Made by a program: the position numbers and the translations under genes. A stretch of 64,000 nucleotides of DNA. Origin: Cladocopium goreaui (lineage: Eukaryota; Sar; Dinophyceae; Suessiales; Symbiodiniaceae). The DNA lies in the NCBI GenBank assembly GCA_947184155.2, contig CAMXCT020001635.1, positions 35,607 through 99,606 on the forward strand, given 5' to 3'. The notes under the pieces are model-generated. The model saw only the letters and a program-made list of their open reading frames with translations. It did not search any database and had not been told where the DNA came from. Every line of letters begins with the position of its first letter. Positions within the stretch are counted from its first letter, which is position 1. Of this stretch, positions 4,743 to 61,018 are shown in pieces.

Positions 4743-6297
4743 ATCTCTTCAGTTTGCTGCGACTCGCAAATAAGTCGCATAGTGGCCCATGGACATCTAC
4801 TCCGCAAGACTACGAGCTGCCTGCTGCCCTGGGCGTGTGCTTCACTGCCGAATATCGTGCCAGCTGGACGCACACAGCAGCCTGGTTGCAGCAGCTCTAG
4901 CAGTCCTGCTAATTGCCACAGCACCAGAGGAATTTGGAGTACCTGAGTGCACCACAACCCTTGAGGCTGCAGGGTTATGTGGTCCTCACCGGTGGGGTAT
5001 CATTCTCCCTAACAGCTCACGGGTCTCAATGCTGACTTACCAAGCTATTGTTGCAGTTCGATATCCTGAGTTAGTCCTCCACGAGCCCAATCACATCTAC
5101 ATTGGACACTTCGTGCCACATGAGTCCACTGTGGCACAAGGAGGCTTCCGGACAGTACTGTGGAAGGCACCTAAAGATCTAAGAGCTGCAGTCGAGGACG
5201 TCGTTGCCTTCTGCACTTATCTGAAGAATTATTATCGCAACTTGCAACAGGGAGCGACCTCGCAGCTGCTTGTCCTATGCAATCGTACGGCGGTGCACAA
5301 CTTGCTGCTCCAACATGGCTTCCAGTCCGCGTGGTATGGTGGGCTGAGAGTTTCCACCACTTCCTCTGCCGCGGGGGCAACAGCACGCATTGCGGTCATT
5401 GTTCAAACAGGCGTTGGGTTTCTAAGTGGAGGACGTCGGGATGCAACAGCAGATGAGCGCGAAGACTGCTATGGGAGAGCAACTGTAGCGCTCACAAGAG
5501 CCATTGAACATACCTATATTGTCTCGCCTCTTGATATGGCAGGCATGATTGGCATGGCTCAGACACTAGGAGTGTACCATTATGGCTACTTCACGCTGAA
5601 AGGCCGAGACATTCAGTACCATGGCCCTTCAAAATACCCCAGTGACAAAAGTGCCATACTGGACTGGGGATTAGTGGATCCATTTATTTCCCAAGATAAA
5701 CCTCCCCTTGCTATTGCCATGATAGTGACCACCAATGGCACGCGAGTGTGGCGACGATATCGGTTGGTGGTGGCATGCAGAGACAAGCTACGGCTACCCC
5801 CTGATGTCCTTGCAGCGTTAGAGTCCCGCACGCGTGATCATGTGCTGACGACCAGCGGGTTTTTCCCCTGCTCGATTGATCGGGAATACTTGTATGGTTA
5901 TGCTGCTGATGGGTACAGATCTCCTCTCTGGCTCTGTGCAGCCTATAATGGGTCCCCAGCACTTGTTCATCGACATCGAGGCCACAAGGTCTTCTTTCAC
6001 GTGGGTATACAGGATCGGCAACTTGTCGTAATACCGGGTATCCACTACTTCGATGCCCATCGGTTGCAACCGGACCTCTTGGACACATTGGATCGCCAGA
6101 TTGATCCAGGGTCCATGAATTTTGCAAGCCCCGAGGGTGCAGGAGACACAGTGAATGACCCCTCCTCGGATGAGGAAGCGGCCTCTACCGATGACGAGAG
6201 TGATCCAGAGGACCCTACAGTTGCATGGTGCCCACCTATACCTGATGCAGCTGAAGATCCTCTGAAGATGAGATCGCGAGTGCAGCTGACAAGCTAG
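4642..6297 (+). pseudogene. SF1 helicase C-terminal motor domain and acidic tail
   Basis: After the duplication the protein resumes in a second frame (about 4660-4899), then moves to a third frame that stays open to the stop at 6295-6297. The conserved tail of the motor includes motif VI (VALTRA, about 5485-5502), typical of Upf1-like SF1 helicases where the Arg contacts ATP. It is preceded by an RDATADERE segment. The end (about 6120-6230) is acidic and Asp/Ser/Glu-rich. At ~6255-6297 the coding-like frame shifts again into the next segment. Together with Walker A and B upstream this completes both RecA-like lobes. Confidence 0.72.
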
Positions 6298-7353
6298 CAA
6301 TCCTGATTACTAATGTCCAACCTAACGGAAACCCGTTTTGCATACCCGAAAACCTTGGAGTTCTCCCACAGTTATGGCTACAGGCGAGATTGACGTTGTC
6401 TTTGACTGCCATCCAAGAAAAGTTTTCGCGCATCTTGCTGAGTGTGGCCTGTGAACTGTGGTTGCGTGGGCAAAGCGCCACGATGGAGGATGTCCTCCTG
6501 CAGACGGCAAGGGCTCTCACAATTCGTTTGGCAGAAAAGCTCGCCCAAGCGATGAGCTCGTTGATGAGATTGGCTGAATCCATGGTGACTCCAGAAACTG
6601 AATGCTTGCTGTATGCCACGTACTGGTTTCGGCCCATCCTGTCTGAGCTCATCGGCTCGGCCCTTGAGAGCTCTGAGGTGAACCGGAGTCGAGCGCCGAG
6701 TGGCCCAGTAAAAGTCCTGGTCACTGATCGGCCGCATCGACGCACTACTGGGCTAGTGGACCTTACGAGTGGTGCCTCTGCCCTATTGGCATGGTTCCCG
6801 GCTAGCTGGGCTAGCAAAATTGCTCCCAAACTTCTTGAGAATGCCCCTGAGAATGCGCAGAAACCACAAGAAATCAACATCGCATGCCCGAAACGTTCCT
6901 GTGACGAGACTCCAGTGGAAGGAGCAAAACAGCTGCTCCAAGCAGTAAAATTTGCTGCCAAAACCATGCCTGGTTTTCGTCTTGGATTGGATGAAGACTT
7001 TCAAATGGCTGGATGCTTCCAGGAGCTCATCCATGGATACACATCAGGGCTCGTTGAACCATGCATGATGCGAGGTCTCCAACCACTGGGACCGACTCGC
7101 ACTACTCTGGAAGTGATCATACCTTCTCAAGAAGGGCTTACACCTGAAAAATGGAAAGAAACAGCCACACTGTGCCCACTTGATTGGCCTTCCAACTACA
7201 GTCTGTTGCGATTGTGGCATACCAATGGGAGCCTGCATCAAACGGTAGCGCGACTCAGGAATCAACTGTCGCACAGCCATATGTTTGCTGAATGGACCGT
7301 GCATCTCAACAGATTTGCAGAGCGTGTTTTATTCCAGCAACCTGCAGTTTATG
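6255..7353 (+). pseudogene. C-terminal extension of the helicase protein, interrupted by the retroelement
   Basis: This frame is open from 6255 and overlaps the last 43 bases of the previous segment, so a one-base shift would join them. It encodes about 365 mostly helical residues, rich in Leu/Ala, with no motif I recognise. Codon choice and composition resemble the helicase segment rather than the decayed retroelement that follows. At 7353 host sequence stops and repeat A1 of the retroelement begins; the ~40 further codons open past this point belong to the element. The missing 3' end is found at 15249. Confidence 0.6.
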
Positions 7354-7715
7354 GGAGCAACTCATTTCAAAGAAATGATGATCCCCTTATTTGTAATGAT
7401 GAGGAAAAATTTTGTAGTGACAAAATTAGGTTGGGCTGTTGTTTCTGTAACCTGTTTTTCACCTTACGCTAAATCAGTACAAAGAACAAACTTGAAAACC
7501 TGAGCATTTTAAACTAAAATGGAAATGCTTCTTTGGTTTCACACAAACAAGAAAGGCTCTAGGTTTTTTGGTTTTGTGGTTTTGAAGTTGCAAAGACAAA
7601 CTCTCAAAACAACCTGGCAGGGCAGCATAAATAATTTTATGTGCGCGCACGCCTCAAACCAGGGTGGGTGAGGTGGGTTTTTTTCACTTCACTTTTGAGT
7701 GAGTGTGAAATTTTA
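7354..7715 (+). repeat. Split direct repeat A1
   Basis: These 362 bases begin GGAGCAACTCATTTC and end GTGAAATTTTA. They recur at 14397-14756 with only a two-base difference in a T run (7 versus 5 T). A1 is the left terminus of the retroelement, and the first ATG of the element lies 23 bases beyond it. The left junction falls within a host codon. Confidence 0.95.
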
Positions 7716-7737
7716 GCATGGGGGTAGGTAGTTGGCC

Positions 7738-8614
7738 ATGGATTCTTCTTCAGAGGAATTCGGAGCGAGCCTGGCAGAGTCTGGACAACAAATTGGAGGA
7801 TCGGAAACAACTGGATTAAGCCATTTGGATACTGGTTTTCTTGAGTTTCAGAACTTAGAAGTGGACGCTGGAGAAATTCTTGAGCCACGGACTAATCTGG
7901 ACTTTGCAGATCTGTTAGGTTTGCCTGATGACAATGCTGGCTACTCACCTTCTGTGTGTACTGACTTTTCGTGGTTTTTACCGGAAACTTCAGTGGAAAC
8001 AACCTGGGTGTTGCAAGCAAGGGACTACAACCAGGAAACATGGGTGCTATCAGCTTGGAAGATCCTTTCAGCAGAGAACTTCAAACTTCTTTGGGGACGG
8101 AGTAGTTGGGTTAATTTTTGGACATAAACCAGTCAGTCATGGACATGATGGAAAAGAGTTCAAGCGACCTTTGCCAGCACCTGTGATACAAGAATCGGCA
8201 AGTGCGTCTTCACGTGAAGTCGAACGGAGAGTTTTTCCAAGGCCTGGCCAAGAGGTGAAAGGTTTGATGCAACGTGTCAGGGACATACCTGGACGCAGCT
8301 GGCAAGAGGAACGTGGAGCAGTGTTGCAAACTTCAGTCAGAAGTTGGGTTATGCTGACTGATACCTGGTTGCCGGAGAGTTCAACTTTGATTGCAGTTTT
8401 ACACAACTGCAAGACCTTTAAGGAGAAGGCACGGATGCTGGTGGATGTTTTTTACAACAAGTCACCTCAGGCTTTGATGAAGCGAGTAAGCCGTTTTCAA
8501 AGACTTTGCACTGCTTTGCAAGTAGATGATATTAGGTTTCCTTGCGTTGAAGAACAGGTCTACAACTTTTTGAAATACAGGAAACTGTCAGGGGAGCGCC
8601 GTCATCAAGACTGA
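7738..8614 (+). pseudogene. N-terminal part of the element's first protein (leads into tyrosine recombinase)
   Basis: An ATG at 7738, just inside A1, opens an acidic Ser/Glu-rich frame to 8127. The conserved part continues in another frame (about 8130-8614). It has a basic Trp/Arg-rich stretch and a segment with Phe-Tyr-Asn-Lys-x-Pro-Gln that I associate with the N-terminal region of tyrosine-recombinase proteins of dinoflagellate retroelements (recollection, not a search). A small indel near 8100-8130 separates the halves. Confidence 0.6.
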
Positions 8615-9480
8615 AGTCGTTCTTTGAGGCTCTGGTCTTTGTCAGGTATGTGTTTAGTGTTGACGCTCTTCAAGCTTTGGCAGGAAGCCGCAAGTGCACA
8701 AGTGCTGCATTCACTAAGAGTTTGAACTGTCCGAAGCAAGCATAACATTCACTGTCAAACAATTGCAAGTTTTTCATGCAGTGCTACGGGAATCAGAAGA
8801 AATCTGGAATAGGGTGATGGCTGGCATGGTCCTTGTTGTTTCTATGCAAGAGCCAGATGGTCGGACCCTCAGCACGCTGAAGCCATGTTTGAAGATAGGG
8901 ATTTTGATGGTCACATTCCAATTTTTGGAAGCAAAAACTGCAGTATCTGAGACGGCAAGAGCGTATCATTTTGAGACGTCAATCTTACCGATGGCATCTC
9001 CTGCCATTGATGTCACAGATGACAACTAGGGTTTGCAATGGACTCATGTTCGAAGAGTTTGAAAAATTGATGACCCGACTAGATATCAGTTGATGCCTGC
9101 ACCTGATAGCATGCTGGAACCAACGTGGCGTCCTTCGACAACGCGAGAGGCCAAGATGTGGATGCATGGGTTGTTGGGTGATACTTTGAACGGAGCTCCA
9201 AAAGACACTGGTCAATTTCGCAAGTGCACATGTTTTTTCCTACATGGCAAAGAGAGGTGCGTCATTTGAGGACAAGCTAATCTCGGGTTACCATGCAAAT
9301 CCCATGAAGATGGCACTGGTTTACAGTCGGGAGAAGGCGGCCCAACGGTTGGCTTTGCTGGCTCACGTTTTGAATGAGACCCAAGGGGTGTCTTTGACCC
9401 TGACTGCACAAGAAGTGGAAGGCTTAAAGCAGGGACAGCGCCGTTTGATCAGGTGGAAGCATTTGCAATCAATTTAAAGG
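8615..9480 (+). pseudogene. Tyrosine recombinase catalytic domain (decayed)
   Basis: Pieces in several frames line up as a tyrosine recombinase. Box I appears as YARARWSD at 8843-8866, in a different frame from its flanks, with the catalytic Arg about 8855. An EAKTAV segment follows at about 8930. The box II region near 9190-9230 is degraded, with no clear HxxR. The C-terminal part runs from 9244 in an open 77-codon frame and keeps the nucleophile region, with Tyr at 9322-9324 in a VYSRE context. At least two frameshifts and the degraded box II make this copy non-functional. Confidence 0.75.
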
Positions 9481-10438
9481 TTCAACTGACTCTGAGTGAA
9501 TCGAATGCCGGTCAACAGGTTAAATCGTGTTCTGAAGGATCCTGGCCGAAGGTTGTTGAAAACCAGACCAAGCCTGGAGCCGAGATTTCAAGCAAGGACA
9601 TGTCACCACACATGCAAGTGACGCGTCGGATAGTGAAAGCCATGCCTTTGCACCGGTAGTTGGACACTGTTTGATAGAAAAGCAGGTTGACAAAGCGTTG
9701 TGGCAAAAATTGCAATTCAGAAATGTTTCACCTTGAAGGGCCGAGCATGTGAAGGTCCTTCTTTATGGAAGGAGGATCACTGCAGGTTTCAAAACAGGCA
9801 CTGGGGTGAAGTCAAGTATGACTCAACCAAGTGCGAACAGTGTTTCAGATCGAAAGACAGCTGAACATGCAACGTTCCGCAAATGTGGAAAATCTTTTCC
9901 GAGCGGCAGGCTTGTTTCCCAGCTGAGATTCACATGTCACTTTTTCCGTTTAATTTCAAGCATGGAATTCACGAGTTTTGCGGTCATGTGTTGAACGGCT
10001 TTTGAGGCGTGACAACAGGATTCCACAATTTCAGTGAAAAAGAAAAAACCTTGAGGCAACAGGCGAAAGGTTTTGCATCGATGCTGTACTCAGAAGTAGT
10101 GCATCTCTCAGGGCAGTTTCAGGACTGTCACATCAGCGAGGAATCGTTGAAGCTTGAAGGTTCAAGCAGAAACGATAGGTCGTTGAGATATGGAGAGTTG
10201 TGGACATGAGTGCAAAGTTTTAACTTCAATTTTTAATGTAGAAAGTCTTCATGGGGTGGCATGCACTGATCATACACACACGAGGCTTTGATTACCAGGG
10301 TTTGCACCGTTTGCATGACGAACAAGGTTTGGTTGCAAACCATTGTGCCAACACGTTCAAACTCATGCTGATGGCTTGCAGTGCCTGAAATATCTCACTT
10401 GACGCACAGTCAGACTGGCAGTTTAGCTATCGCCCTCG
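9481..10438 (+). pseudogene. Decayed tail of the recombinase protein and spacer before gag
   Basis: Short coding-like fragments occur in mixed frames. Examples are a VLLYGRRI stretch at about 9755 and, in another frame, a KCEQCF Cys pair near 9830, which may be remains of a small zinc-binding C-terminal module. No frame is open across the segment. From ~10010 to 10438 I see no recognisable protein. Confidence 0.4.
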
Positions 10439-11641
10439 ATGTCTCTTGCCGATTCCGAAGCTGCGTTTGAGCAGCACTGCAGCAAATTGGTGGGGGATGG
10501 TAGCTTAGCAACCTTGTTGGTCAACCATGGTATCAAGAGCTTGAGTGCTCTGGCTTTTGCGTCGGGAACACCGCAGTCACCGCCAACAGAGGAACAATTC
10601 AAAGAGTTTGCAACGCAGGTGAATGGCGGAGTGGACATGAGTTTTGGTATGCAAGCGCACCTCAAACGTCTGCATTTCGAAGCCGCTGCAATAGTGATGG
10701 CTGAGTTGAAATCACGTGCAATGGACACTACACCAGATGGGGCTAGGAAGCTGCCTTTAGCAGAAAAAGCAGCACGGTTCAAGGAGCAAGAGGCCAGACT
10801 CCCTGGCCTGCGCCTGAAAGGCGAACTACAGCCGTCCTACGCCTTAGTGGATCTGGTGGCACAAGTCAAAGAGACGAACTGCATCACTTGGATTGCTCCG
10901 AGTAAGTGCACTAAGAGAGACAGTGAAGTTCAAAACAGCCTCAAGGAGAAACCCGTGATCCTTTCTTTAGAACAACAGATGGTTAAGTTGGCCACACCCA
11001 CAGAGCAGCTGGTGGCCGACACTTCTACAGATTTGCAGTTTCAATGGGCGCTTCAGCGCCGTGGCTTGGCGTACGATCAGTGTACGCTCATAAAGTTTGA
11101 CGAGCATGAAGCTTGGGTACAACAGCTGCTGGGACAGCTGACCAAAGAACCACCGCCTGGATTCACGAGAGTTTCAATCAGCCAAGCAATTCGAGCAGAC
11201 AGGGAACTTTTTACAATAATGGCCCAGGAGCTGCAAGACTCTGTGCAGCCTGACCCCCGAGGAGTTCTCCCAATGGAGGCCAAGTTGAAAGAGCTCAGAA
11301 CGGACCCTAGGGTCACAATGTTCTTGCTACCCATGGCAAAAGGTAGCCCAAAGGAACAGGAAAAAGCTGCTTCCTCTACTCCGACACCAAAGGCCACTCC
11401 TGGACCTCCTGCACGACCTACAAAGAGGGCAAAGACCTCTGCCAAAGCGAAGGCAATGTGCCCTAGTGAGATGAAGGGATTTGCACAAAGAGACGCCAAT
11501 GGACAGGCAATTTGCTGGGCCTCTAATCAGAAAAGTGGGTGCAAACTCGAGGTGTCAAATGGACGTTGCAAAAAGGGCATGCATTGCTGCATAAAGTGCC
11601 ATAAGAGCAATCATAGCTTGGTCACTTGCCGCTCCAGCTAA
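10439..11641 (+). CDS. Gag-like nucleocapsid protein with CCHC zinc knuckle (retroelement)
   Basis: This is an intact 400-codon frame with a clear ATG at 10439 and stop at 11639-11641. The N-terminal ~300 residues are alpha-helical and charged. Residues ~305-340 are basic and Pro/Ala/Lys-rich, as in RNA-binding linkers. The C terminus has a Cys-x8-Cys-x8-Cys-x4-His arrangement followed by a perfect retroviral-type knuckle CX2CX4HX4C at 11588-11629. It is likely to coat the element RNA. It lies between the recombinase and the RT region. It is the only long undamaged frame in the element, which is notable beside the many breaks on both sides. Confidence 0.85.
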   Translation: MSLADSEAAFEQHCSKLVGDGSLATLLVNHGIKSLSALAFASGTPQSPPTEEQFKEFATQVNGGVDMSFGMQAHLKRLHFEAAAIVMAELKSRAMDTTPDGARKLPLAEKAARFKEQEARLPGLRLKGELQPSYALVDLVAQVKETNCITWIAPSKCTKRDSEVQNSLKEKPVILSLEQQMVKLATPTEQLVADTSTDLQFQWALQRRGLAYDQCTLIKFDEHEAWVQQLLGQLTKEPPPGFTRVSISQAIRADRELFTIMAQELQDSVQPDPRGVLPMEAKLKELRTDPRVTMFLLPMAKGSPKEQEKAASSTPTPKATPGPPARPTKRAKTSAKAKAMCPSEMKGFAQRDANGQAICWASNQKSGCKLEVSNGRCKKGMHCCIKCHKSNHSLVTCRSS

Positions 11642-11766
11642 CTATCGACAAAGCAGGACAGCGTGAACACAGCAGCATTCTTAAAGAGAAAGTTGCACGA
11701 TGCGAAAGTGGTTTCCTTTGCTAAAAGTCAGATCAAACCACAGCGTCAAGATTCACCCTTTTTTGG

Positions 11767-12630
11767 ATGTTGAACAACAACATGTGGAATGAATGTGACT
11801 CCAAACAATGGGGTAAAATACAGTGTCACCTATCAGGACGCCAAAGGCGACCCAAAGTTCCAGGGCAGGAAATTACAAGCCTTGCTTTTGTGGAGATGCT
11901 TGCAGGGGCGGCAAGGCTAGCAAAGATAGCACTAGATCAAGGAACGGGCGTTTTGCCGGTTGACAAAATATCGGAAAGGGCCTCACAGACCTTTGTCGCA
12001 AATTATGATGCGACCAACCCTGAAGAATGTCAAGACCTCATGGCTCTTTTAGAGAAGGAGAAAGACAGACTGTTGGCTGTCCACCTTGCGCCAACTTGCT
12101 GCACAGCTTCAAAGGCCTGAAAAAGAAACTTTGGCGATTTAGGCACAAAGGGTTCGCGGTGCCTGGACTTCTTCGGGCAAAAGACAAGCTTGTGGGCTTA
12201 GATAAATGGGCAGGTTTGGATAAAATGCACACGGAAGCCGCCAACATGGTATTTTCAGCAACCGCAACCATCATGAAGTTTCGCATTGCAAACAACATTT
12301 AGTGCTCTTTGGAGAATCCGGAAAAAACACGTTTTCTGGGATCATCCTGCAATTGCAGAAATTTTGCAGGACCATGTTGGCTTCAGCAGTTATTTAATTC
12401 ACCGCATGCACGGGGGTCCATGGAACAAAAAGACAAGATGGTGGGCCTCTCACATGTCTTTTTTCCGCACTGCTTTAAGTGATGGCAGCCACCAACATGC
12501 CACATGGAATCCAACAGTAGTATGGAAACAATTGAGTTTCCCCACAGCAGAAGAAGCAGCACACCCCTGCGGTTGCACATGGAGAGCAACAACCACAAAC
12601 GTTGGATGAACAAGTTCCAACGTACACCAA
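11767..12630 (+). pseudogene. Methyltransferase-like segment and start of the RT polyprotein (decayed)
   Basis: The open piece 11767-12120 contains FVEMLAGAARL, which looks like a SAM-binding motif I, and ends with an LAPTCCTASKA stretch resembling the Pro-Cys loop of C5-methyltransferase-like folds. After stops and frame changes, 12286-12609 gives an NKKTRWWAS stretch and a Cys/His/Trp-rich part ending FPTAEEAAHP. I recall this pairing upstream of RT in dinoflagellate YR elements. Whether it ever methylated anything is unknown. Confidence 0.55.
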
Positions 12631-14003
12631 CATGGCACACTGATGGATCATGGACATGCTGCCTAACGGTAAAAACTACGTCATGGTTTGCGAGTTTCAC
12701 GGTGGAACCGGAACGAAACCAATTTTTTCTGTAGTAGCCGAGAAGGCAGAGTTGTTCATCGACAATTACAATGGGGGAAAGTGCGGGTCGATGAAGGAAG
12801 ACATTTTGCGGGTCGATGAGGGAAGAAATTTTGAGTCAACAACCCCAAAAGAGGTGCAACTTGATGATCAGACGTTGCAAGGGTTTTTTGACCTTGAAGG
12901 AGAAACCTTTTGAAATGAAGTTTGCACTGCAGGTATACTCAGAGAACCATGGGACTTGTTGCTTTGGCCACCAATGCTGGCCATCCCGGGCCCATGTCCT
13001 TGCAATTGAACTCGGAGGTGACGGAGACGCTGCGGATCCATTTTTCGCTGGACCCGCATCTGGGTGTCAACGAGAAGGCCCTGTTTGCAAGTTTTTGGTC
13101 ACAACGTTGCAAGGAGCCCGACAGTGAATAGACAGCCTTGCATGCAAACCTAAAGACACCTTCGCGTTTAGTCCTGCGGGGCAAGCGTCTTTTGCTTTCA
13201 AAAGAGATGCTCGAGGCATATGAATACCCAGACAAAACTCTGGTGGACAACATCACCTATGGGTTCCCTCTTTTCCTGGATGGCTAACAAAGTAGCATGT
13301 CTTTACAGTTGGTTTGAAGCGTCCTTCACAAAGCGCAGAGTCGGCACTCAAAGTGGCAAAGGACGTCAATGGGGGCATTTGCAAACAGGTGTCGTTAAAC
13401 ACCCTGACCCTGACCTGGACAAAGAGGTATGGGAACAGACCCTAGAGGAGTTGAGCAACATATGGACATGTCTGGATGAAGAATATGAGCCTTCGAAACA
13501 CTTGATTACGAGTGATTTGGCCTCTGGTAGGAAGATAAGATGCGATTCATAGATAACTGCACTGGAGGAGGTTTTAACTCCACCTGTGGAGTTTGCGAAA
13601 GCTTCAAGGGTGCATGCCATAGATGAGATGGCCTCATACATAACATGGTGCATGACTACGTTGTCTGGGACCCCCCTAGATGAAGTGGTGGACAAGAAGT
13701 ACGATTTGGAAAGTGCATACAAGCATTGCCGATGCGTGTTTCTTCCGGGATCATGAAGCGGCCAAGGGATCAATCATTGCTGGATCTACCACCAGCGAAA
13801 ATGGCAGTTGGTTAGTTAGAACACTTTCAGTCCATGAGATGAGATGTCAACTGAAAGTCTGGTTTGCAAGAGTTTCTATTGGCAACAATGTTGCTGACAA
13901 ACCCAGCAGGCTTGACGTGACAGAACTGGTCGCTGAAGGCGCTAGTAGAGTCACTATCAATTGGGACAAACTTTTAGAGCAGATTCAGAAAATACAGATC
14001 TGA
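12631..14003 (+). pseudogene. Reverse transcriptase/RNase H region (heavily decayed, internal deletion)
   Basis: Recognisable islands are, first, a conserved pre-RT block around 13162-13270 (GKRLLLSKEML, then DNITYGFP). Second, in a shifted frame at ~13610-13725, an IDEMASYITW stretch leads to RT motif A (YDLESAYK, catalytic Asp at 13703). Third, from ~13750 to 14003 there is the C-terminal RNase H/connection end with FARVSIGNNVADKPSR. The RT palm between motif A and this tail, including the YxDD-type motif C, is absent, so there is an internal deletion near 13725-13750. Confidence 0.75.
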
Positions 14004-14013
14004 TGAGTGGGGG

Positions 14014-14396
14014 TGACGGTTGAGCGGGATCGTACTTTCCCCGCTGCTCTGTTAAGAAAAAAGGTGTGCTCCCAATCTGACATGTTCAGAAAATTTTTCA
14101 TCCGAAGGGATTGACAGTTGACATGTTTTATCAAGTTGTGAGAAAAGATTGTTTCGGATCCGGAGGAGATGCAAAACAATTTTTGGTGAAGGTTTTTCGA
14201 CGGCTGGGTTTTTTGGCAGACAAAGAACGTTCAGCGAAAGAATCACAAGCGATGTTTTCGCGTGTGGTCGTTATGGAGATATATATGTATATACATATAT
14301 AGTTCAACACGACACGTTTACTGTACGATAGCGATAAGGCCACAGGTTAAAGGTGGAAACTTCCAACCCAGCCGGTTTCCTCGAGAAACAAATAAG
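14014..14396 (+). repeat. Split direct repeat B1
   Basis: These 383 bases begin TGACGGTTGAGCGGGATCG and end CTCGAGAAACAAATAAG. They are repeated at 14865-15248 with one base difference in a T run. A2 starts immediately after, giving the B1-A2 junction. Near the end is an AT-rich palindrome (GATATATATGTATATACATAT, about 14279-14299). Confidence 0.95.
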
Positions 14397-14756
14397 GGAG
14401 CAACTCATTTCAAAGAAATGATGATCCCCTTATTTGTAATGATGAGGAAAAATTTTGTAGTGACAAAATTAGGTTGGGCTGTTGTTTCTGTAACCTGTTT
14501 TTCACCTTACGCTAAATCAGTACAAAGAACAAACTTGAAAACCTGAGCATTTTAAACTAAAATGGAAATGCTTCTTTGGTTTCACACAAACAAGAAAGGC
14601 TCTAGGTTTTTTGGTTTTGTGGTTTTGAAGTTGCAAAGACAAACTCTCAAAACAACCTGGCAGGGCAGCATAAATAATTTTATGTGCGCGCACGCCTCAA
14701 ACCAGGGTGGGTGAGGTGGGTTTTTCACTTCACTTTTGAGTGAGTGTGAAATTTTA
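14397..14756 (+). repeat. Split direct repeat A2
   Basis: This is a 360-base copy of A1 that directly abuts B1. Near identity with A1 implies either a recent insertion or gene conversion. The B1-A2 junction is the expected recombination-circle junction of YR elements. Confidence 0.95.
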
Positions 14757-14864
14757 CCCGCCCAACTGTCGTTTTCCCGCCCCAAACTTTTCATTGAAAC
14801 CTTGGATGCTTCGCGCAAGGAAGGTTTCAAAATCATATTTCCAATCGCCTACCCCTCAGCCGTT
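14757..14864 (+). other. Linker between A2 and B2
   Basis: These 108 bases are present only here, between A2 and B2, and are not found after A1 or before B1. They contain an inverted repeat, GAAACCTT...AAGGTTTC type, at about 14796-14829, which could form a hairpin. In a textbook split-repeat element A2 and B2 are contiguous, so this is either an extra terminal segment or an internal part lost from the other copies. Confidence 0.6.
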
Positions 14865-15248
14865 TGACGGTTGAGCGGGATCGTACTTTCCCCGCTGCTC
14901 TGTTAAGAAAAAAGGTGTGCTCCCAATCTGACATGTTCAGAAAATTTTTTCATCCGAAGGGATTGACAGTTGACATGTTTTATCAAGTTGTGAGAAAAGA
15001 TTGTTTCGGATCCGGAGGAGATGCAAAACAATTTTTGGTGAAGGTTTTTCGACGGCTGGGTTTTTTGGCAGACAAAGAACGTTCAGCGAAAGAATCACAA
15101 GCGATGTTTTCGCGTGTGGTCGTTATGGAGATATATATGTATATACATATATAGTTCAACACGACACGTTTACTGTACGATAGCGATAAGGCCACAGGTT
15201 AAAGGTGGAAACTTCCAACCCAGCCGGTTTCCTCGAGAAACAAATAAG
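14865..15248 (+). repeat. Split direct repeat B2 (right end of the retroelement)
   Basis: This second copy of B ends AACAAATAAG at 15248, where host coding sequence resumes with TAGCTGGACATGCC. The left host end (TTTATG at 7353) and this right end share no direct repeat longer than the single G, as expected for YR integration. Confidence 0.95.
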
Positions 15249-15490
15249 TAGCTGGACATGCCTTGCAAGCCAACTTGCGGGAACGAACCTTCCCAGACAG
15301 GAAAGTCCGCAAGAGGGTTCCTCCGGAAGATCTGGATGAACATCAACGGGCGATTCGAGCGCTACATCAGCGAGCTATTGCTCAGCAAGCAGCTAACCCA
15401 GTTTCGTTTGCACTCACCAATGAATGGAACGACACTATCACATCGGACAAGAAGCATCATTTGGAACATTTCATGAGAGGTACGACATGA
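15249..15490 (+). pseudogene. 3' end of the helicase protein, beyond the retroelement
   Basis: Joining host base 7353 to 15249 keeps the frame: the split codon becomes GTA (Val), and about 79 further codons run to a stop at 15488-15490. The sequence is rich in Arg/Gln/Glu and helical, including an AIRALHQRAIAQQAANP stretch, similar in composition to the segment before the insertion. A GTACGA near 15480 could also serve as a splice donor, so the true end is not certain. Confidence 0.7.
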
Positions 15491-15630
15491 TCCCTCCAAC
15501 ACCTATTCTCATCACTTTTTCCCTTTGTCCCTCATACAACATTGGCTTTTGTTTCATCAGCAACGGAAGTGGGAGTTTACTTTAATCACTATTTGGTCTT
15601 TCGTCATTTCTACTTCAGGTTACTGTCCAT

Positions 15631-15830
15631 ACTGGTGTGTCTGTCCAAAGACGTGACAGGTGCATTGGTATGCAGTCGGGGACACAGCTCTTCCTCATTT
15701 ATAATTGTCAGGTTCCTCATGACCCATGCCTGGGAGGCTACTTCCACACTGGTGTGTCTGTCCAAAGACGTGACAGGTGCACTGGTATGCAGTAGGTGAC
15801 ACAGCTCTTCCTCATTCATACTTGTCAAAA
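15631..15830 (+). repeat. 117-bp tandem duplication
   Basis: A block starting ACTGGTGTGTCTGTCC at 15631 recurs at 15748 (offset 117) with about 80 matching bases and few changes. A weaker trace of the ATGCCTGG/TCCACACT spacing continues to about 15895, suggesting a third degenerate copy. Confidence 0.85.
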
Positions 15831-18496
15831 ATGTTCTGCCACATGCCTGGCCCCTACTGATTCAGACCTCCAACAGCTAGTATCCACACTCATGTGTTTT
15901 CATGTGGGAGTGATAGCCTAGGCATAACAAGCCGAGCAGCATGCTTTCCCCTTGCACTAGTGCTTAGAATGTGTTGTCCAGTCGAGAGCTTAGATTATAC
16001 TAAGGCCTCCTCACACCATGAAGCCCACTGCATGAGTGCATGCTCTCGTACCCGGTGCCTGACAATCATAGGTGATGATGTAACTGTTTTCGTTTTCCCC
16101 TGACGTAATACTGACGAGACTACCCCTCTCCCACCCTTCCCACTAGTTAAGGTACGTGAATTCGTCGTTTTACCCATAGTTGTTGCAATTTGCAGAGCTA
16201 CAGTAGGCGTAGTGCCTCGGTTGTTGATTCTGTTTTGTTTTTTTTTGGTCCCTGCCTGCCGTAGCCCTCCCTCCCCCTCGGATGGTCCTCGTTGGCGCCT
16301 TGGTCCAGGTTTTACTGGTCCCTCCCTCTGGGTATCGTTGCTTCCGGCGACGGCCTGGTTGCCGTGCCTCTGCGCGTGGAGTGTTTGTTGCGCACTGTTT
16401 CCCCTCCTCATCATGTCTCATGGCAACAAAGGCCTTGGCCCTGTGTGGGGATCTTTCCCTCTACACCATGCTTCATGTGTTGTTGGGGTGCTGTGTGCTC
16501 CCTCACTGAGGTATTCATCATTGTATGATCCTTGTCCCCTTCCTGGACTCCGCTAAGACACGTTCGTACCCCTTCTAGTGCGTGTGTGTCCTTTCTCTCT
16601 CTGTCCTCTGCTGCCTCCTGGCTCCTCTCCTCTTTTCCTCTGTTGGCTTGTTGTTTTGCATGGGTTGTACTTTGGCCGCTCCCCCCTCTTTGCTTCCCCC
16701 TTGATGGCAGGTTTCGTTTTGTTTGGGCGTGTGTTGTTTTTGCTTCCTCTGTTGCCTGGATACCGAGGTTACAGCTCTGCACAGTCACCCATTTTTTCAC
16801 CATGGTTACATTGATCTTATCCGGTAGTGACTAAGGATTTATCCGAGGTGGGACAGCTTTTGCTCACCGTCCCCCCCCTTTTTGGTTGAGTTGATCCCCT
16901 TTTGAATTCGTTTGTTTGTTTGTTTGTTTGTGTTGAATTTGTCTGGTGGCTTCCTCTTTGGCTGTCTTGGGATGGGCCCTTCTCTCTCTGTGTTTTGTTT
17001 CCTGTGTGTTTTCTTGAGGGGCGGTAGATTCCCGGTAGAGCCATGGACTAGGCTGCACTGCAGTGAGCTCTACTGGCGCTGTCCAGTTGTGCTTCCTGCA
17101 GTTCAGTCTGGAGCGCCCGAGTGCAGCAAAGCCTGCCCACATGGTTCGTTGTGCGGATTTTCTGTATTGCTATGGCCTATGGCCCACTCGATGGGAGAGT
17201 GGCTTTGTCTGGAATATACAGATGCCTTCCTGTGCATCCGGTCCTCTCCGCAGAACTTGCTGGGACGATGACGCCTAGTGACTCCTGTCTGAGTATCTGG
17301 TGCTGGCGCACCGAACCACCTTATCTTTGATCGTTTTGGTGCACAAGTCTTACAGCAATGCGAATGCGACTTTTGTATACCTACCTGCAGTATCATACTG
17401 GAAGTGCTCACGAGCCCATGTTATGGTCGAAACATCATTTGTCTGTCATGGCCGTACTGAGCCGGTCAGGCCTTTAGCCACTTTTTCACCCACGGCCTTA
17501 GGGTCTTGGGCACAAGTCACGTGACGGTTTCTGCAAGTGCTCACACCATGTTGCAGGCTGTCAGTGCTCTCCTCCCCGTTTTGGGGGGGAAATAGATTAC
17601 AGTCCCTTGCGGTGGTGTATACTGACAGGAACAGACTGCCTGGCATACGCTGAACAATACAGGGTGAACAGCAGAGATGCGGAAGTTGATTTATTGACAA
17701 ATCGTCCATACAGGCGGCCTCTGTCGAACCACACATCAGTCTGCCTACAATATTGGACTCCCTTTGCTGTTCTCAGGTAAGACGGTCTGGGCAATCAGGT
17801 ACAACACTTCATGCACCGCCGCAATTAATTAGTTTGCATGTTTTTGAGGATGATACAGTGGCTAAGGTCGCTGTATCCAAGGCAAATCTGAGAGTTTTTT
17901 GTTTTGGTTCTTGTTGGGCCCTGCCCCTTTCTTTGTTGCTTCGCTGTCTTGCTTTGTGGCGAAACGCAAATCTGGCTGGGGGATTTGCGGGTCGTTTTTG
18001 GTTGTGGTTCTTGTTGTTTTTTTGTTTCTCGTGATGATTTGCCGGAGATTTTTGGACCACACGAGTCCTGTACACTACTGCTTTTCACTGCTTACGCAAT
18101 TGTAAGGACCGTGCCTAGTGCGAATCGGCCAAACCAGAGGAAAAAAAAAACTTCATGCATGTCCATTCGACAATATGCAATATATCATATAATATCACTT
18201 AATCGTTATGTCTACAATTTTCTGTGGCATATGTCATTTGTTTGTACATAATACCCGTAAAAGGTCGCTCCTTGAGATGTGCCAACTGCAGGCACCTGGA
18301 CAGCTTTTGTTGTTTTCACTCACTCAGTGCGCTCGGCCGTCATCGATCCGAGCAAGTTCTGCAAGTCCGACACCGAAAGTTGACGAGCTGCCTGAAGGAG
18401 GGATCAAGGGTATAGAGTGCTGGGGATATCTTATCAACATCTCAATATATGGTCAATATTTTTGGCTATATCTCAGAAAGCAAATACATGGTGCCT
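15831..18496. other. Long stretch with no supported gene, pyrimidine-rich on the plus strand
   Basis: About 2.7 kb has no convincing coding sequence. From 16200 to 17050 the plus strand is strongly T/C- and GT-rich, with runs such as (TTTG)n near 16912-16935. From 17890 to 18030 it is T/G-rich. Short open frames overlap on both strands with no domain or splice pattern I trust. A plus-strand fragment around 18270-18420 looks mildly coding but has no support. Confidence 0.5.
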
Positions 18497-32632: not shown

Positions 32633-33479
32633 GCAGTTTCAAAGACCCTAGGCCCTAGGACCCTAAGCCCTAGGACCCTAAGCCGTCACTGTGTATTGGA
32701 CCCAGTTGAGCAGTTATTCAAGTAAGATCTTACCATCAATGATTTGTGTTTTTTTTTAACCATCAAACATACTCTATGGCGATGTAATTGAATGTAATTG
32801 ATATATAAGGGTTGGTTATGGTTGGTTTACCACATATATTTTTCTGTTGGGGGGAATACTACAACCCTTTGTATGTAGAAGATTATTTTGATTAAAACTG
32901 GGACTCCCGGATTAAACAATCAACTTTTTGCATTTCAATGAGGTTTTGATTTCACTGCTCAATTGAGAGTTCCAAAGCCATAGACAAAGGGATGGGACGG
33001 GACACGTTCTTTATTGATCTCTATGAAACCAGCTGGTGTACCACCATTCAACTATCAAGATTGCTTAGTATGTGGTTAGTACATAGTTAGTAAATACCTT
33101 CTATCTACTCAGACATAGATGATACTGACAACACACCCCATGGATACACATATAGATGGAAAAACAGAGGTGGGAAGAGTCAGAGAAGAGAAGAAGAGAA
33201 GATCAGAGATGAGAAAGAGTCAGAAGAAAGAAGATGCAGGTGCGGGAAAAGGTAGAAAAGTCGCGATTCACGGTGTGAAGTTTCAGTATAACCATGGAAT
33301 GATTTCAGGTAACGAAGCATGGTTCCGCATTTTCTTGCCGTAGTTACCAGATCACACATTATGCCGTGGTTCCGGCGTACTCTCTTCACTGTGTTTTTCC
33401 AATGATTTGTGGCTCCAGAGGGTCGAAAAGTAGGCTCGCTAAAGCGGCGGGTGCGGAGCCATCTGGGCAGATGAGAGAT

Positions 33480-33790
33480 GAAAAATTGCACGCCGTTGTG
33501 GCACGAAGCACATTTGCAAGTCAAAATGTTAAAAGACCAAAGGTTCGGAGCACGTAATGTGGAACAAGTGCACACCATTGTGGCGCGAAGCACATTGCCA
33601 AGTCAAAATGTACAAAGCACACCAACGTTGGAGCACTTTTGGAAATTGAGATGTTGAAAAAGCGCACGACATTGTGTCGTGAAGCACATGTCGAAGTCAA
33701 AATCTACAAAGCACACCAGCTTCGGAGCACTTTTGGAAATTGAGATGTGCAAAAAGTGCACGCCGTTGTGGCGCGAAGCACACTTTTGGA
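33480..33790 (+). repeat. 80-94 bp tandem array in composite repeat copy 1
   Basis: Units begin GAAGCACATT at about 33506, 33587, 33681 and 33773. Each contains AAGTCAAAAT, CGGAGCACTTTTGGAA, GAGATGT and a GCACGCCGTTGTGGCGC end. The reverse strand is open across units and gives repetitive Cys/Phe-rich translations that should not be called genes. Confidence 0.85.
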
Positions 33791-34371
33791 CGTTCAGATG
33801 TCGTTTTTGCGTGGCAGGCACAAGGGATTGTGCACCTTGTCAAGAGTGTTGGCAGGTGTGGGACATTTGAAGAGGATCTGCAAACATGCATTTCGCGTTG
33901 CAGGTGCAGTACAAGAGACATGTTCATCAGAGATGTTAGGAGGTCCGGGCGCTGATTTCCTGAGAGGGGTTGCATTTGGGAGCATCAGATCTTCAGGTTT
34001 GCTAAGATGATTTTGTGTGACACTTGCAGCACTTTGTATGATCTGGCTTTACTTTTTCGTGGCCCGCGCAGTACTTTAGGCAGATGGAGTGGAGAAATCG
34101 CAAAATGCATTGGTACGAGGCCGTGAGCTCTGTACTCACCTTTCCATTTTTGAAGGAAGTCTCGCAGAATTGTTTCGTTTTTGACGTTGTCAAGGTGGAA
34201 AATTGTGGACGTCTTGCAGGCTTGCTTTGTTTTTGACGTTGTCATCTTTGAACATTGAGGAGGTCTCGCAGAATAGCTTAGTTTTCAAGCTCGCAGATAG
34301 ATAGATTAGATTAGACTAGACTAGATTAGATTAGATTAGATTAGATGAGAAACGAAACGATAGATAGTGAA

Positions 34372-34404
<33 letters not shown>

Positions 34405-34540
34405 AAGACAGACAGACAGGCAGACAGACAGACAGACAGATAGATAGATAGATAGAAAGATAGAAAGAGAGATGAATAGATACTTAGACTGACGGATAGA
34501 TAGACAGATAGAGAGATAAACAGATAGACAGATAGATAGA

Positions 34541-35030
34541 CAACTACGACTACACTACGCTACGTTACAACTACAACTACCACTACACTACAACTACAAC
34601 TACAACTTGAACCTGCACTTCAACAACACTACAGCTACAACTACAACTACAACTTCAATTTCAACTTCAACTTTAACTTCGCTGCAGCTACAACTACAAC
34701 TACCACAACAATACACTACAACTACCATTACCACCACGGCTACAACTACAAGTACAAGTACAACTACCATTACCACTACGGCTACAACTACAAGTACAAC
34801 TACAACTACACTGCAACTACAACTACAACCACTACTACAACTAGCACTGAACTACACTACTCTACACTACAACCACAACTACAAGTGCAACTGCAGCTAC
34901 AACTACACTGAGCAACAGTACAACTACAACTGCAACTACAAGTACAGCTGCAACTACAGCTACAACTACAATTACCACTACACCTACAACTACAACTGCA
35001 CTACAACTACAACTACAACTACAAATTACA
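34541..35030 (+). repeat. (CTACAA)n-type microsatellite field
   Basis: About 490 bases of ACTACA/ACTTCA hexamer- and trimer-like repeats with interruptions. Translated frames are only Thr/Tyr/Asn/Leu/Gln repeats. It is preceded by GATA/GACA repeats (34281-34545). The same pair of satellites is present in composite copy 2. Confidence 0.9.
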
Positions 35031-35580
35031 CCACACCACGCCGCACTACATTCAGCGGTTGTGGGTGAGGTGACCACTGCAACTACTCCAAAAGCACAGC
35101 TCCAACCACCTTTCGGTCCATCAGTGGAATCGCTCTGCCACCCATGCATCAGTAACAACTCACCTCTTCTATAAGTTTCCGATTTTTGAAACTTCCACCA
35201 CCGCCTTGTGCGGTACTACTGGTATATATCTTTCTATTTTGTCAACCGTGGATGAATAAACTCTGGGGCTGTCTCATTGGGCAGATGTACACGGCGAATT
35301 ATCACTGTTTGGGGGACGACCTCGCAATTAATCAACCAGGGTACTGTAGATGTTCATCCGGTGTTGACTTTGCCGGTCTTATCCATGGCCTTTCACACCT
35401 TAGTATTTCTACATGCCCATGACGTGTGGTATACATATATTTACATGAATAGATATATCCCAGGTATCTTCATATCCATACTCTGACTTTTTTCGCACTC
35501 CCAGAATCCCCTAAAAATCGTCGAAAGTTACCCAACAAACAACGAAAAAAGTGAAAATTCACATTTTTTCTGCATCTTAG

Positions 35581-37062: not shown

Positions 37063-38891
37063 AAGAGGTGGGAAGAGTCAGAGAAAAGAAGAGAAGAAGA
37101 AAGAAGATGCAGATGCGCGAAAAGGTAGAAAAGTCGCAATTCACTGTGTTTTTCTAATGATTTGTGGCTCTGAAGGGTCGAAAAGTAGGCTCGCTAAAGC
37201 GGCGGGTGCGGAGCCATGTGGCCAGATGAGAGATGAAAAATTGCACGTCATTGTGGCGCAAAGCACGTGGCGAAGTCAAAAGTGTTAAAAACGACGGGTT
37301 CGGAGCACTTTTGGAAGTTGAGATGCTGAAAAAGCGCACGCCGTTGTTGCGCGAAGCACATTTGGAAGTCAAAAGTGTTAAAGCTGAGGGGCTCGGATGA
37401 TTTTTGGAAGTTAAGATGTGCAAAAAGTGCACGCCGTTGTGGCGCGAAGCACATTTCGAAGTCAAAAGTGTAATGGGTTCGGAGCATTTTTGGAAGTTGC
37501 GATGTTGAAAATTTGCACGACATTGTGGCGTGAAGCACATTTCGAAGTCAAAATCTACAAAGCACACCAGCTTCGGAGCACTTTTGGAAGTTAAGATGTG
37601 CAGAAAGTGCATTTCGAAGTCAAAATCTACAAAGCACACCAGCTTCGGAGCACTTTTGAAGGTTTAGATATGGTTTTGCGTGGCAGGTGCAAGGGATTCG
37701 GCACTTTGCCAAAAGTGAGGAAAATGTAGAGATTTTCTAACATTTCCAACAACGATGGCAGGCGTGGGGCATTTCAAGAGGATGTGCAAACATGCATGTC
37801 GCATGGCAGGTGCAGTACAATAGACATGTCCATCAGAGATGTTAGGAGGTCCGGGCGCTGATTTCCTGAGAAGGGTTGCATTTTGGAGCATCAGATCTTC
37901 AGGTTTGATAAGATGATTTTGTGTGACAGGTGCAGCACTTCGTATGACCTGGCATGACTTTTTCGTGGCAGGCGCAATACTTTAGAGACATGGATTGGAA
38001 AAATCGCACAACGCATTGGTACGAGGCCGTCAGCTCTGCTCAACTTTCCATTTTGGAAGGAAGTCTCCCAGAATTGCTTCGTTTTTGATGTTGTCAAAAC
38101 GAAATTTGAGGAAGTCTAGCAGACTTGTTTCGTTTTTGACGTTGTCAAATTCAAAAATTGAGGAAGTCTCGCAGAATTACTGCGTTTTTGATGTTGCCAA
38201 GTTCAAAGTTTGAGGAAGTCACGCCGCAGAATAGCTTCGTTTTCAAGCTTGCAGATAGATATCTAGGTAGATAGATAGATGCAAAGATAGACAGACAGAT
38301 GGCTAGATAGACAGCATAGATAGATAAACAGACACACACACATATATATGTATATAGACAGATGGATAACTGCAAGTACACTACACTATAACTACAACTG
38401 CAACTGCAACTACTACAACTACTACAACTACTACAACTACTACAACTACTACAACTACCTTACAACTGCAACTAGAACTACACTACAACTACAACTTCGA
38501 CTACACTTCAACTACAAAAACTACAACTGCAACTACAACTACATTTCAACTAAATTTCAACTACACTACAACTACAACTACAATTACTACAGCTACTGCA
38601 ACTGCAGTTACTACAACTACAACATCACAAATTCATGAACATCAACTACACTACAACTACAATTACACTACAACTACGACTACAACTACAACTACAATTA
38701 CGTGGCACTTCGCTACCCACACTACATCCTGCAGCTGTGGGTGAGGTGACCACTGCAGCCACTCCAAAAATCACAGCCACCTTTCGGTCCATCAGTGGAT
38801 TCGCCCTGCCATCCATGCATCGCAACAACTCACCTCTCCTACAGTGTCCTATCGTTGTAACTTCCGCCACCGCCTTGTGCGGCACTACTGG
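37063..38891 (+). repeat. Composite repeat, copy 2
   Basis: This second copy of the 33164-35222 structure has the same block order: purine tract, AAAGCGGCGGG block, tandem array of ~80-93 bp units (37250-37660), GCGTGGCAGG block, 50-bp GTTTTTGA(T/C)GTTGTCAA array (38075-38240), GATA/GACA and CA repeats (38250-38365), (CTACAA)n field (38369-38700) and a terminal block ending TTGTGCGGCACTACTGG. It lacks the 113-bp insertion seen in copy 1 and has one more tandem unit. Confidence 0.9.
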
Positions 38892-39223
38892 TTATGACTG
38901 AAATTTTAACCACACTTGCGATTCCTGGGGTGAAACACGAAGTAGACATGCATGGAATATGGACCCTAAGCAGGTTGCAAGAGAATGGTGGGAACTAGAT
39001 AGATGAGGCCCCAGCCTTGTGTTTTGCAGAAGTGAATAGCACAAACCAGTGAGGTAAATCATCAAAAGGGTGCTGGCTATCAGAAACTTGGCCTCATTGT
39101 TATGCAATTTGTGTGTTGTTACAACTCTTTGACTGAAGCATGAGCTGACGCTTTCATGGGTTCATACTAGTTATGTTCCTCCCATTTTTCTGGCTACAAA
39201 ACCGATCAAATGTCATGTCCAAG

Positions 39224-59129: not shown

Positions 59130-61018
59130 TTGACAACTTAAATAAATAAATCAATCCATCCATCCATCCATCCAATCTGATCCATCTCATCCCATCCGAT
59201 CCCATCCCATCCCATCCCATCCAATCAATCAATCAATCAATCAATCAACCAGTCAACCCTAAAACCAATCAACCTATCAAGCTATCGAACTATCTAGCTA
59301 TCTAGCTATCTAGCTATCTAGCTATCTAGCTATCTAGCTATCAATCGATCAATCAATCAATCAATCACTCAATTTGCCTATCTATCCTATTATCCCATCT
59401 TATCCCATCTTATCCTATCTTATCCTATCTTATCCTATCTTGGCCTATCTTATTATATCTATCCTAGCTATCCTAGCTATCTAGCTCTCTAGCTATCCAG
59501 CCATCAAGCCATCTAGCCATCTATCCTATCCTATCCTATCCTATACTATGCTATCCGTCTGTCAGTCTGTCCGTCTGTCAGTCTGTCCGTCTGTCAGTCT
59601 GTCCGTCTGTCAGTCTGTCCGTTTGTCTGTCTACGTGTCTATGTGTCTATGCGTCTATGTGTCTGCGTGTCGGTGTGTCTGTGTGTCTGTCTGTCTGTGT
59701 GTCTCTGTATCTTTTTATCTGTTTGTCTATGTATCTGTTTGTCTGTGTGTCTGTGTGTCTGTCTGTCTGTGTGTCTGTGTGTCTGTGTGTCTCAGTATCT
59801 GTCTATCTGTTTGTCTATGTATCTGTTTGTCTGTGTATCTGTGTGTCTGTCTGTGTGTCTGTGTGTCTGTCTGTCTGTCTGTCTATCTGTTTGTCTGTCT
59901 GTCTGTCTGTCTGTGTGTTTGTCTGTCTGTCTATCTGTTTGTCTGTCTGTCTGTCTATCTGTCTATCTGTCTGTCTATCTATCTATCTCTTCAATCTCTT
60001 CAATCTCTATCTATCTCTATCAATCTCTATCAATCTCTATCTACCTCTATCAATCTCTATCTATCTCTATCTATCTCTTTCTATCTCTATCTCTCTATCT
60101 ATCTCTATCTATCTCTATCTATCTCTATCTATCTCTATCTATCTCTATCTATTTCTATCTATCTCTATCCATCTCTATCTATCTATCTCTATATATATAT
60201 ATCTATATCTATATCCATATCTATATCCATATCTATATCCATCTATATCTATATCTACCTATATCTATATCTATATAAGTCTATATCTATATCTATCTAT
60301 ATCTATCTATATCTATATATGTTTCTATATCTCTATATATCTATCTATATCTATTTCAATATCTATATCAATATCTATCTATATCTATTTATATCTATAT
60401 CTATCTATATCTATTTATATCTATATCTATCTATATGTATCTATATCTATCTCTATCTATCTCTTTTCTCTATCTAGCTCTTTTCTCTATCTATCTCTTT
60501 TCTCTATCTATCTCTTTTCTCTATCTATCTCTTTTCTCTATCTATCTCTTTTCTCTATCTATCTCTTTTCTCTATCTATCTCTTTTCTCTATCTATCTCT
60601 TTTCTCTATCTATCTCTTTTCTCTATCTATCTCTATTCTCTATCTATCTCTTTTCTCTATCTATCTCTTTTCTCTATCTCTTTTCTCTATCTCTTTTCTC
60701 TATCTCTTTTCTCTATCTCTTTTCTCTATCTCTTTTCTCTATCTCTTTTCTCTATCTCTTTTCTCTATCTATCTCTTTTCTCTATCTATCTCTTTTCTCT
60801 ATCTATCTCTTTTCTCTATCTCTCTCTTTTCTCTATCTCTTTTCTCTATCTCTTTTCTCTATCTCTTTTCTCTATCTCTTTTCTCTATCTCTTTTCTCTA
60901 TCTCTTTTCTCTATCTATATCTATCTCTTTTCTCTATCTATATCTGTCTCTATCTCTACCTCTATCTATCTATCTATCGATCGATCTATCTATCAATCAA
61001 TCAATCAATCAGATAGAT
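59130..61018 (+). repeat. 1.9-kb pyrimidine-strand microsatellite field
   Basis: Successive zones are: ATCCATCC/ATCAATCA (59150-59250); TATCTAGC (59285-59340); TATCCTATC (59390-59560); GTCTGTC/TGTGTGTC (59550-59960); ATCTCTATCTAT (59975-60190); ATATCTAT (60190-60450); CTCTATCTATCTCTTTT and CTCTTTTCTCTAT (60450-60930); and CTATCTAT/CAATCAAT to 61012. The plus strand is almost free of purine runs. Long open frames across it (up to 455 codons) are simple Ser/Val/Cys/Leu/Tyr/Ile repeats and are not genes. Confidence 0.97.

Follow-up and report, generated by a model that had tools for sequence, protein, structure and literature searches.

A dinoflagellate tyrosine-recombinase retrotransposon with an intact gag, broken enzymes and probable mobilisation in trans

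How can a retrotransposon have sharp ends, almost identical repeats and an open gag gene when both of its enzymes are broken? The question is raised by an element at positions 7354-15248 of a 64,000-nucleotide window of the dinoflagellate Cladocopium goreaui (assembly GCA_947184155.2, contig CAMXCT020001635.1, positions 35,607 to 99,606 of the forward strand), which the original prediction described as a complete retrotransposon with a tyrosine recombinase (YR) and split direct repeats. Completeness holds for the ends and fails for the genes: YR and Pol are dead, the core of the reverse transcriptase (RT) is deleted and only gag is open. Our results make it probable that this is a 7.9-kb semi-autonomous YR retrotransposon, with the order YR-gag-Pol and split direct repeats, which belongs to a dinoflagellate-type lineage and is mobilised in trans with its own gag.

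Self-comparison of positions 6500-16500 gave two interleaved pairs of direct repeats in the predicted order, A1-coding-B1-A2-B2:

7354-7715 (7353 equally possible as start), plus strand: A1, left outer direct repeat, 99.2% identical to A2, placed by boundary analysis
14014-14395, plus strand: B1, internal direct repeat, 99.7% identical to B2
14396-14756, plus strand: A2, internal direct repeat, abutting B1 with zero gap (self-comparison)
14757-14864, plus strand: unique spacer of 108 bases from A2 to B2 (self-comparison)
14865-15248 (15247 equally possible as end), plus strand: B2, right outer direct repeat (self-comparison and boundary analysis)

The A copies measure 363 and 361 bp and the B copies 383 and 384 bp, and the pairs differ solely in two T-run lengths. 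The prediction staked itself on alignments of about 360 and 380 bp, and these were found: A1 (7350-7715) and A2 (14393-14756) are 99.2% identical over 366 columns, with a 2-base gap in a T-run and a sole mismatch just beyond the repeat edge, hence zero substitutions within the pair; B1 (14014-14396) and B2 (14865-15248) are 99.7% identical over 384 columns, with no mismatches and a 1-base T-run gap. The only further match in the compared region is a 94-bp tandem pair (15617-15827), and all other plus-strand self-matches of at least 200 bp across the whole window are below 88% identity. The layout is real, not a product of chance. The element is 7895 bp long, and its edges, announced as resolved to the base, are indeed fixed to within one shared G (7354-15248 or 7353-15247). 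The left flank reads ...CAGTTTATG, the right flank ...AAATAAGTAGC, and the internal junction ...AAATAAG/GGAGC..., the slash marking the junction.

The insertion lies within an open reading frame (ORF), the target, whose two parts were found in the ORF list and by joining the flanks:

6255-7352, plus strand: left part of the interrupted flanking ORF
15248-15490, plus strand: right part of the interrupted flanking ORF, in frame once the flanks are joined

When 7352 is joined to 15248, or 7353 to 15249, a continuous frame results, with 366 codons on the left and 80 on the right. This restoration is not automatic, because 7895 is not divisible by three, and since it is achieved with one shared G it points to insertion without target-site duplication. 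YR retrotransposons (order DIRS) lack such duplications, and the read-through at this single insertion may be taken as support, not proof, for the same here. The surroundings also hold a 117-bp tandem unit in two copies (15617-15850), shortly past the right flank, and an open frame of 504 amino acids (aa) at 4783-6297 that contains the stretch VGFLSGGRRDATADEREDCYGRATVALTRA. We take this stretch to resemble the C-terminal part of UPF1-like helicases; for the 504-aa frame neither Pfam (E<=0.1) nor the PDB sequences (E<=1) gave a match.

Mapping homologues to the window gave the coding order YR, CCHC gag and Pol, with the internal repeats following RNase H:

7738-9861, plus strand: YR pseudogene (ORF1), 78.9% identical to P0122 over 692 residues, with 14 frameshifts and 2 stops
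10439-11641, plus strand: intact gag (ORF2), 400 aa with the stop, 95.8% identical to P0001 over 400 codons, lesion-free
11588-11629, plus strand: C-x2-C-x4-H-x4-C zinc knuckle within gag, CIKCHKSNHSLVTC, found in 107 of 120 listed homologues
11654-14016, plus strand: Pol pseudogene (ORF3) with a methyltransferase-like (MT-like) N-terminal domain, RT and RNase H, with 17 frameshifts and 6 stops
12782-12833, plus strand: 25-bp tandem duplication inside Pol (tandem-repeat finding)
13700-13750, plus strand: site of a 305-residue deletion (residues 690-994 of P0227) that fuses RT motif A to the C-terminal part of RNase H (homologue alignment)

The partial protein P0243 of Symbiodinium necroappetens has the C-terminal part of YR (6-227), gag (273-654) and RT (712-973) in one chain, which supports both this order and the proposed dinoflagellate lineage; the lineage does occur in dinoflagellates. 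Relatives of different genes also come from contigs of equal length, 85734 bases for YR P0123 and Pol P0227, and 68251 bases for gag P0065, YR P0177 and P0198, and Pol P0239, which suggests, without proving it, that the members of each set share a contig.

The recombinase fragment noticed at 8615-9480 is part of the YR pseudogene. The intact homologue P0123 is modelled with a Cre-like tyrosine recombinase fold, a structure of the relative and not of the window's broken protein, and the YR relatives carry the residues R-K-H-K-H-Y at Cre-like spacing. The search returned 106 of them (P0121-P0226), and in an alignment of 83, box II reads HxxK, not HxxR, in 75 of the 76 gap-free rows. Compared with P0122, the window has E and Q where the catalytic K and H would stand, but it retains the residues at the R, H/W and Y positions. 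By this model and these residues the element encodes a YR in place of a DDE integrase, its own copy being a pseudogene.

The supposed RT/RNase H remnant at 12631-14003 is real; it represents the C-terminal portion of a Pol pseudogene, which begins at about 11654 and has lost the RT catalytic core. Among 17 relatives, P0227, P0228 and P0229 each give 17 frameshifts, 6 stops, the 305-residue deletion and smaller gaps. The deletion removes FFDDY, LPFGAIG and FELELLP (by comparison with all three homologues) and TDGACEG (by comparison with the two of them that have it), and the RT active site is gone with its core; what remains is the N-terminal part of RT together with the end of RNase H. The TGA that closes the frame in the homologues is the first triplet of B1. 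The RT and RNase H of a DIRS-order retrotransposon are found in this Pol, and P0227 is modelled as both, in a weak model (mean pLDDT 55) whose structural comparison rows span residues 534-913 and 919-1058 and barely cover the N-terminal part. For the MT-like domain, six pieces had no Pfam match at E<=10, the N-terminal part of Pol had only two matches among PDB sequences (E 0.88 and 1.3), and none of 15 Pol proteins, of which 8 contain the N-terminal domain in full and 1 contains part of it, matched the Dnmt3 domain PF00145. The stretches F-AGTARL, ACGTAS and ENP of the MT-like domain resemble C5 methylase motifs.

The predicted CCHC gag was confirmed by its zinc knuckle, and a search gave 368 relatives, 120 of them among the matches listed. 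If lesions had struck gag at the rate of YR and Pol (39 in 4434 bp), assumed to be uniform, about 10.6 would be expected, and none is observed (P about 3e-5); with the smaller lesion count obtained from P0121, about 8.9 would be expected (P about 1e-4). Pfam gave only two sub-cut-off matches for the gag relatives, and the gag profile found nothing in PDB better than E 0.06. One relative with 60% identity, P0055, was deposited as a protein of a Myxococcota metagenome-assembled genome, on a contig of 2870 bases, and is probably eukaryotic contamination of that genome.

Might the frameshifts be long-read sequencing errors in an element that is truly intact? Both repeat differences are T-run lengths, a typical error of this kind, but errors fit neither the 305-residue deletion nor the 8 in-frame stops and changed catalytic residues. 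Moreover, lesions are common to other contigs, and gag stays open, as do two flanking ORFs, one running for 366 codons as far as the insertion and the other for 504 aa. The explanation was rejected on the large deletion, the stops, the common lesions and the open neighbouring frames, and we hold it to be extremely improbable.

The lesions common to other copies were sought at 65% identity and full cover, with 243 proteins tested. The protein P0121 (15 member sequences) matches out-of-frame YR at 7995-8156 (83%) and within 8748-9656 (73%), P0173 (6 members) matches 7928-8656 at 98.4% in a shifted frame, and an 86% match of P0019 covers 10251-10559, a mostly non-coding stretch upstream of gag. 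Both P0121 and the window contain the out-of-frame stretch VSMQE...LSTLKPCLKIGILMV. When YR is compared with P0121, stops go from 2 to 4 and frameshifts fall from 14 to 6, as expected if several frameshifts were inherited.

These observations bear on a second explanation, in which an ordinary autonomous element decayed in place, its gag staying open by luck while gene conversion, or a low rate of mutation, preserved the likeness of its repeats. The heavily broken YR and Pol are what such a relic would have, and conversion between the neighbouring B1 and B2 would be easy. Yet there are 0 substitutions in both repeat pairs against 39 lesions in 4434 bp, A1 and A2 lie 7 kb apart, other contigs have lesions in common with this one, and the lesion-free gag would be a rare accident at the P value given above. 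Simple decay after insertion was rejected on the substitution-free repeats, the common lesions and the open gag, and we consider a dead relic unlikely. The absence of substitutions means that the insertion is recent or the repeats were homogenised; because the repeats are nearly identical and the lesions are common to other copies, the enzymes most likely broke before insertion.

A semi-autonomous element mobilised in trans would reconcile these observations. In the circle model for elements with split direct repeats, integration passes through a circular intermediate; here the transcript would run from A1 to B2 and be packaged by the element's own gag. The RT/Pol of an intact relative would then make complementary DNA (cDNA) in trans, the B1-A2 junction, which duplicates the junction of the circle, would template the missing ends to form a circle, and the relative's YR would recombine it into the target. 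Selection would retain gag, the enzymes being borrowed. Several points weigh against this scenario. The common lesions were seen solely as protein predictions, not as DNA, with 1 of 243 proteins per zone, and scans of viral and genome contigs with gag, YR and Pol gave no second DNA copy. The likeness of the repeats could also be due to gene conversion. The case for selection on gag is built on an open frame and 95.8% identity, not on a ratio of substitution rates (dN/dS), the folds belong to relatives, not to the window's broken proteins, with a weak model for Pol, and we infer both the helper element and its activity.

The B1/A2 junction has a further property:

14388-14437, plus strand: hairpin over the B1/A2 junction, with 11-bp outer arms and an inner 7-bp stem

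Its 5' outer arm joins the final 8-9 bases of B to the opening bases of A and pairs against A, and because the arm spans both, neither outer end of the element has the hairpin alone. The predicted energy is -19.5 kcal/mol (z -4.45, 0 of 200 shuffles), and by wider controls the hairpin is only moderately unusual. Integron integrases use attC hairpins as substrates, and by analogy the borrowed YR of a gag-only lineage, with its R-K-H-K-H-Y active site, might act on folded single-strand cDNA with the B-A hairpin as recombination substrate. We regard this as a long shot. If true, the element would reveal the way in which the cDNA circle of a YR retroelement is integrated.

Other searches were largely negative. 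Pfam gave three sub-cut-off matches for a set of 10 of the window's own pieces and zero for a set of 7, none of 7 proteins matched NCBIfam, and in PHROGs 2 of 6 proteins had a weak RNase H match, with everything else at chance level. The YR and Pol profiles found in PDB one 36-residue chain at E 0.83 and otherwise nothing. A plasmid collection searched with A1 gave nothing useful, and there were no Rfam matches and no matches to a DinoSL spliced-leader motif. Elsewhere in the window, 33385-35227 and 37140-38895 form a diverged direct duplication, with pieces 76-88% identical, both copies of which hold related tandem arrays, of 93-94 bp and of 52 bp, together with microsatellites of the AGAT and ACAACT types. 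A TCTA/GTCTGTCT-type microsatellite of nearly 2 kb occupies 59150-61010, and the 515-aa ORF across it is a repeat artefact.

Where does the element belong? The grouping with Ngaro, PAT and VIPER first proposed stands for the repeat layout and not for the gene order YR-gag-Pol or the internal repeats placed after RNase H. A proper Ngaro or PAT element, merely reshuffled, would account for the A1-ORFs-B1A2B2 layout, which excerpts of the literature describe for Ngaro (PMC8547959) and PAT (PMC4157794), and for a CCHC gag as in Pat1. However, YR here precedes gag and Pol, whereas the internal repeats of Ngaro and Viper are described as lying downstream of YR (PMC4157794, in part). Further, the Pfam integrase family PF00589 had no match at E<=1 among 42 YR relatives, though it is reported to detect the YRs of DIRS and Ngaro (PMC3783388). 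Ngaro proper was rejected on YR order, and we find the reshuffled element very unlikely. A YR family divergent enough for Pfam to miss implies that Pfam-based pipelines would under-count such elements.

Like Ngaro, the element has split direct repeats and a YR instead of a DDE integrase, but YR comes first, not last, it is very divergent, and Pol has an MT-like N-terminal domain. PAT elements (Pat1, Toc, Kangaroo) have split direct repeats and a putative methyltransferase, and differ in YR position; the Pfam search with six pieces of the MT-like domain recognised no Dam methylase at E<=10. VIPER of trypanosomatids has A1 at the 5' end and B1A2B2 at the 3' end, with a CX2CX4HX4C gag motif in some (PMC6681497, in part), and differs in host group and YR position. 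The closest published elements, in the sources as excerpted, are the SymbioDIRS of Symbiodinium (PMC5890265), which have A-coding-B-A-B repeats, encode YR in an ORF of its own and come in two ORF orders. Among them, SymbioDIRS-Dnmt3 resembles our element in its dinoflagellate host, its repeats, and YR and Pol in separate ORFs; its Pol has RT, RNase H and a methylase, and the order of integrase and Pol ORFs is shuffled between two architectures. Its DNMT is named as PF00145 and its YR as PF00589, neither matched by Pfam in the 15 Pol and 42 YR relatives here, and that excerpt describes no element that pairs an intact gag with dead enzymes. Hence, a dinoflagellate YR element is not new, and the YR-first order is probably not new either. 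Among the matches listed in literature searched on dinoflagellate or Symbiodinium DIRS and on non-autonomous YR elements, no gag-only YR element was seen by title or abstract start.

For tests of integration the insertion offers base-resolved ends, a probable empty site and a junction that copies that of the circle. The state itself, gag kept and enzymes borrowed, has been described for plant long terminal repeat (LTR) elements, in the portions of the sources consulted: RLG_Sabrina and RLG_WHAM have an intact gag, lack the enzymes and are believed to depend on a partner for mobilisation (PMC9744471, PMC5738225). Those are LTR elements with a DDE integrase, not YR elements. If our reading is true, the element of C. 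goreaui is a YR retrotransposon caught turning parasite of its own family, keeping the particle gene and borrowing both enzymes.
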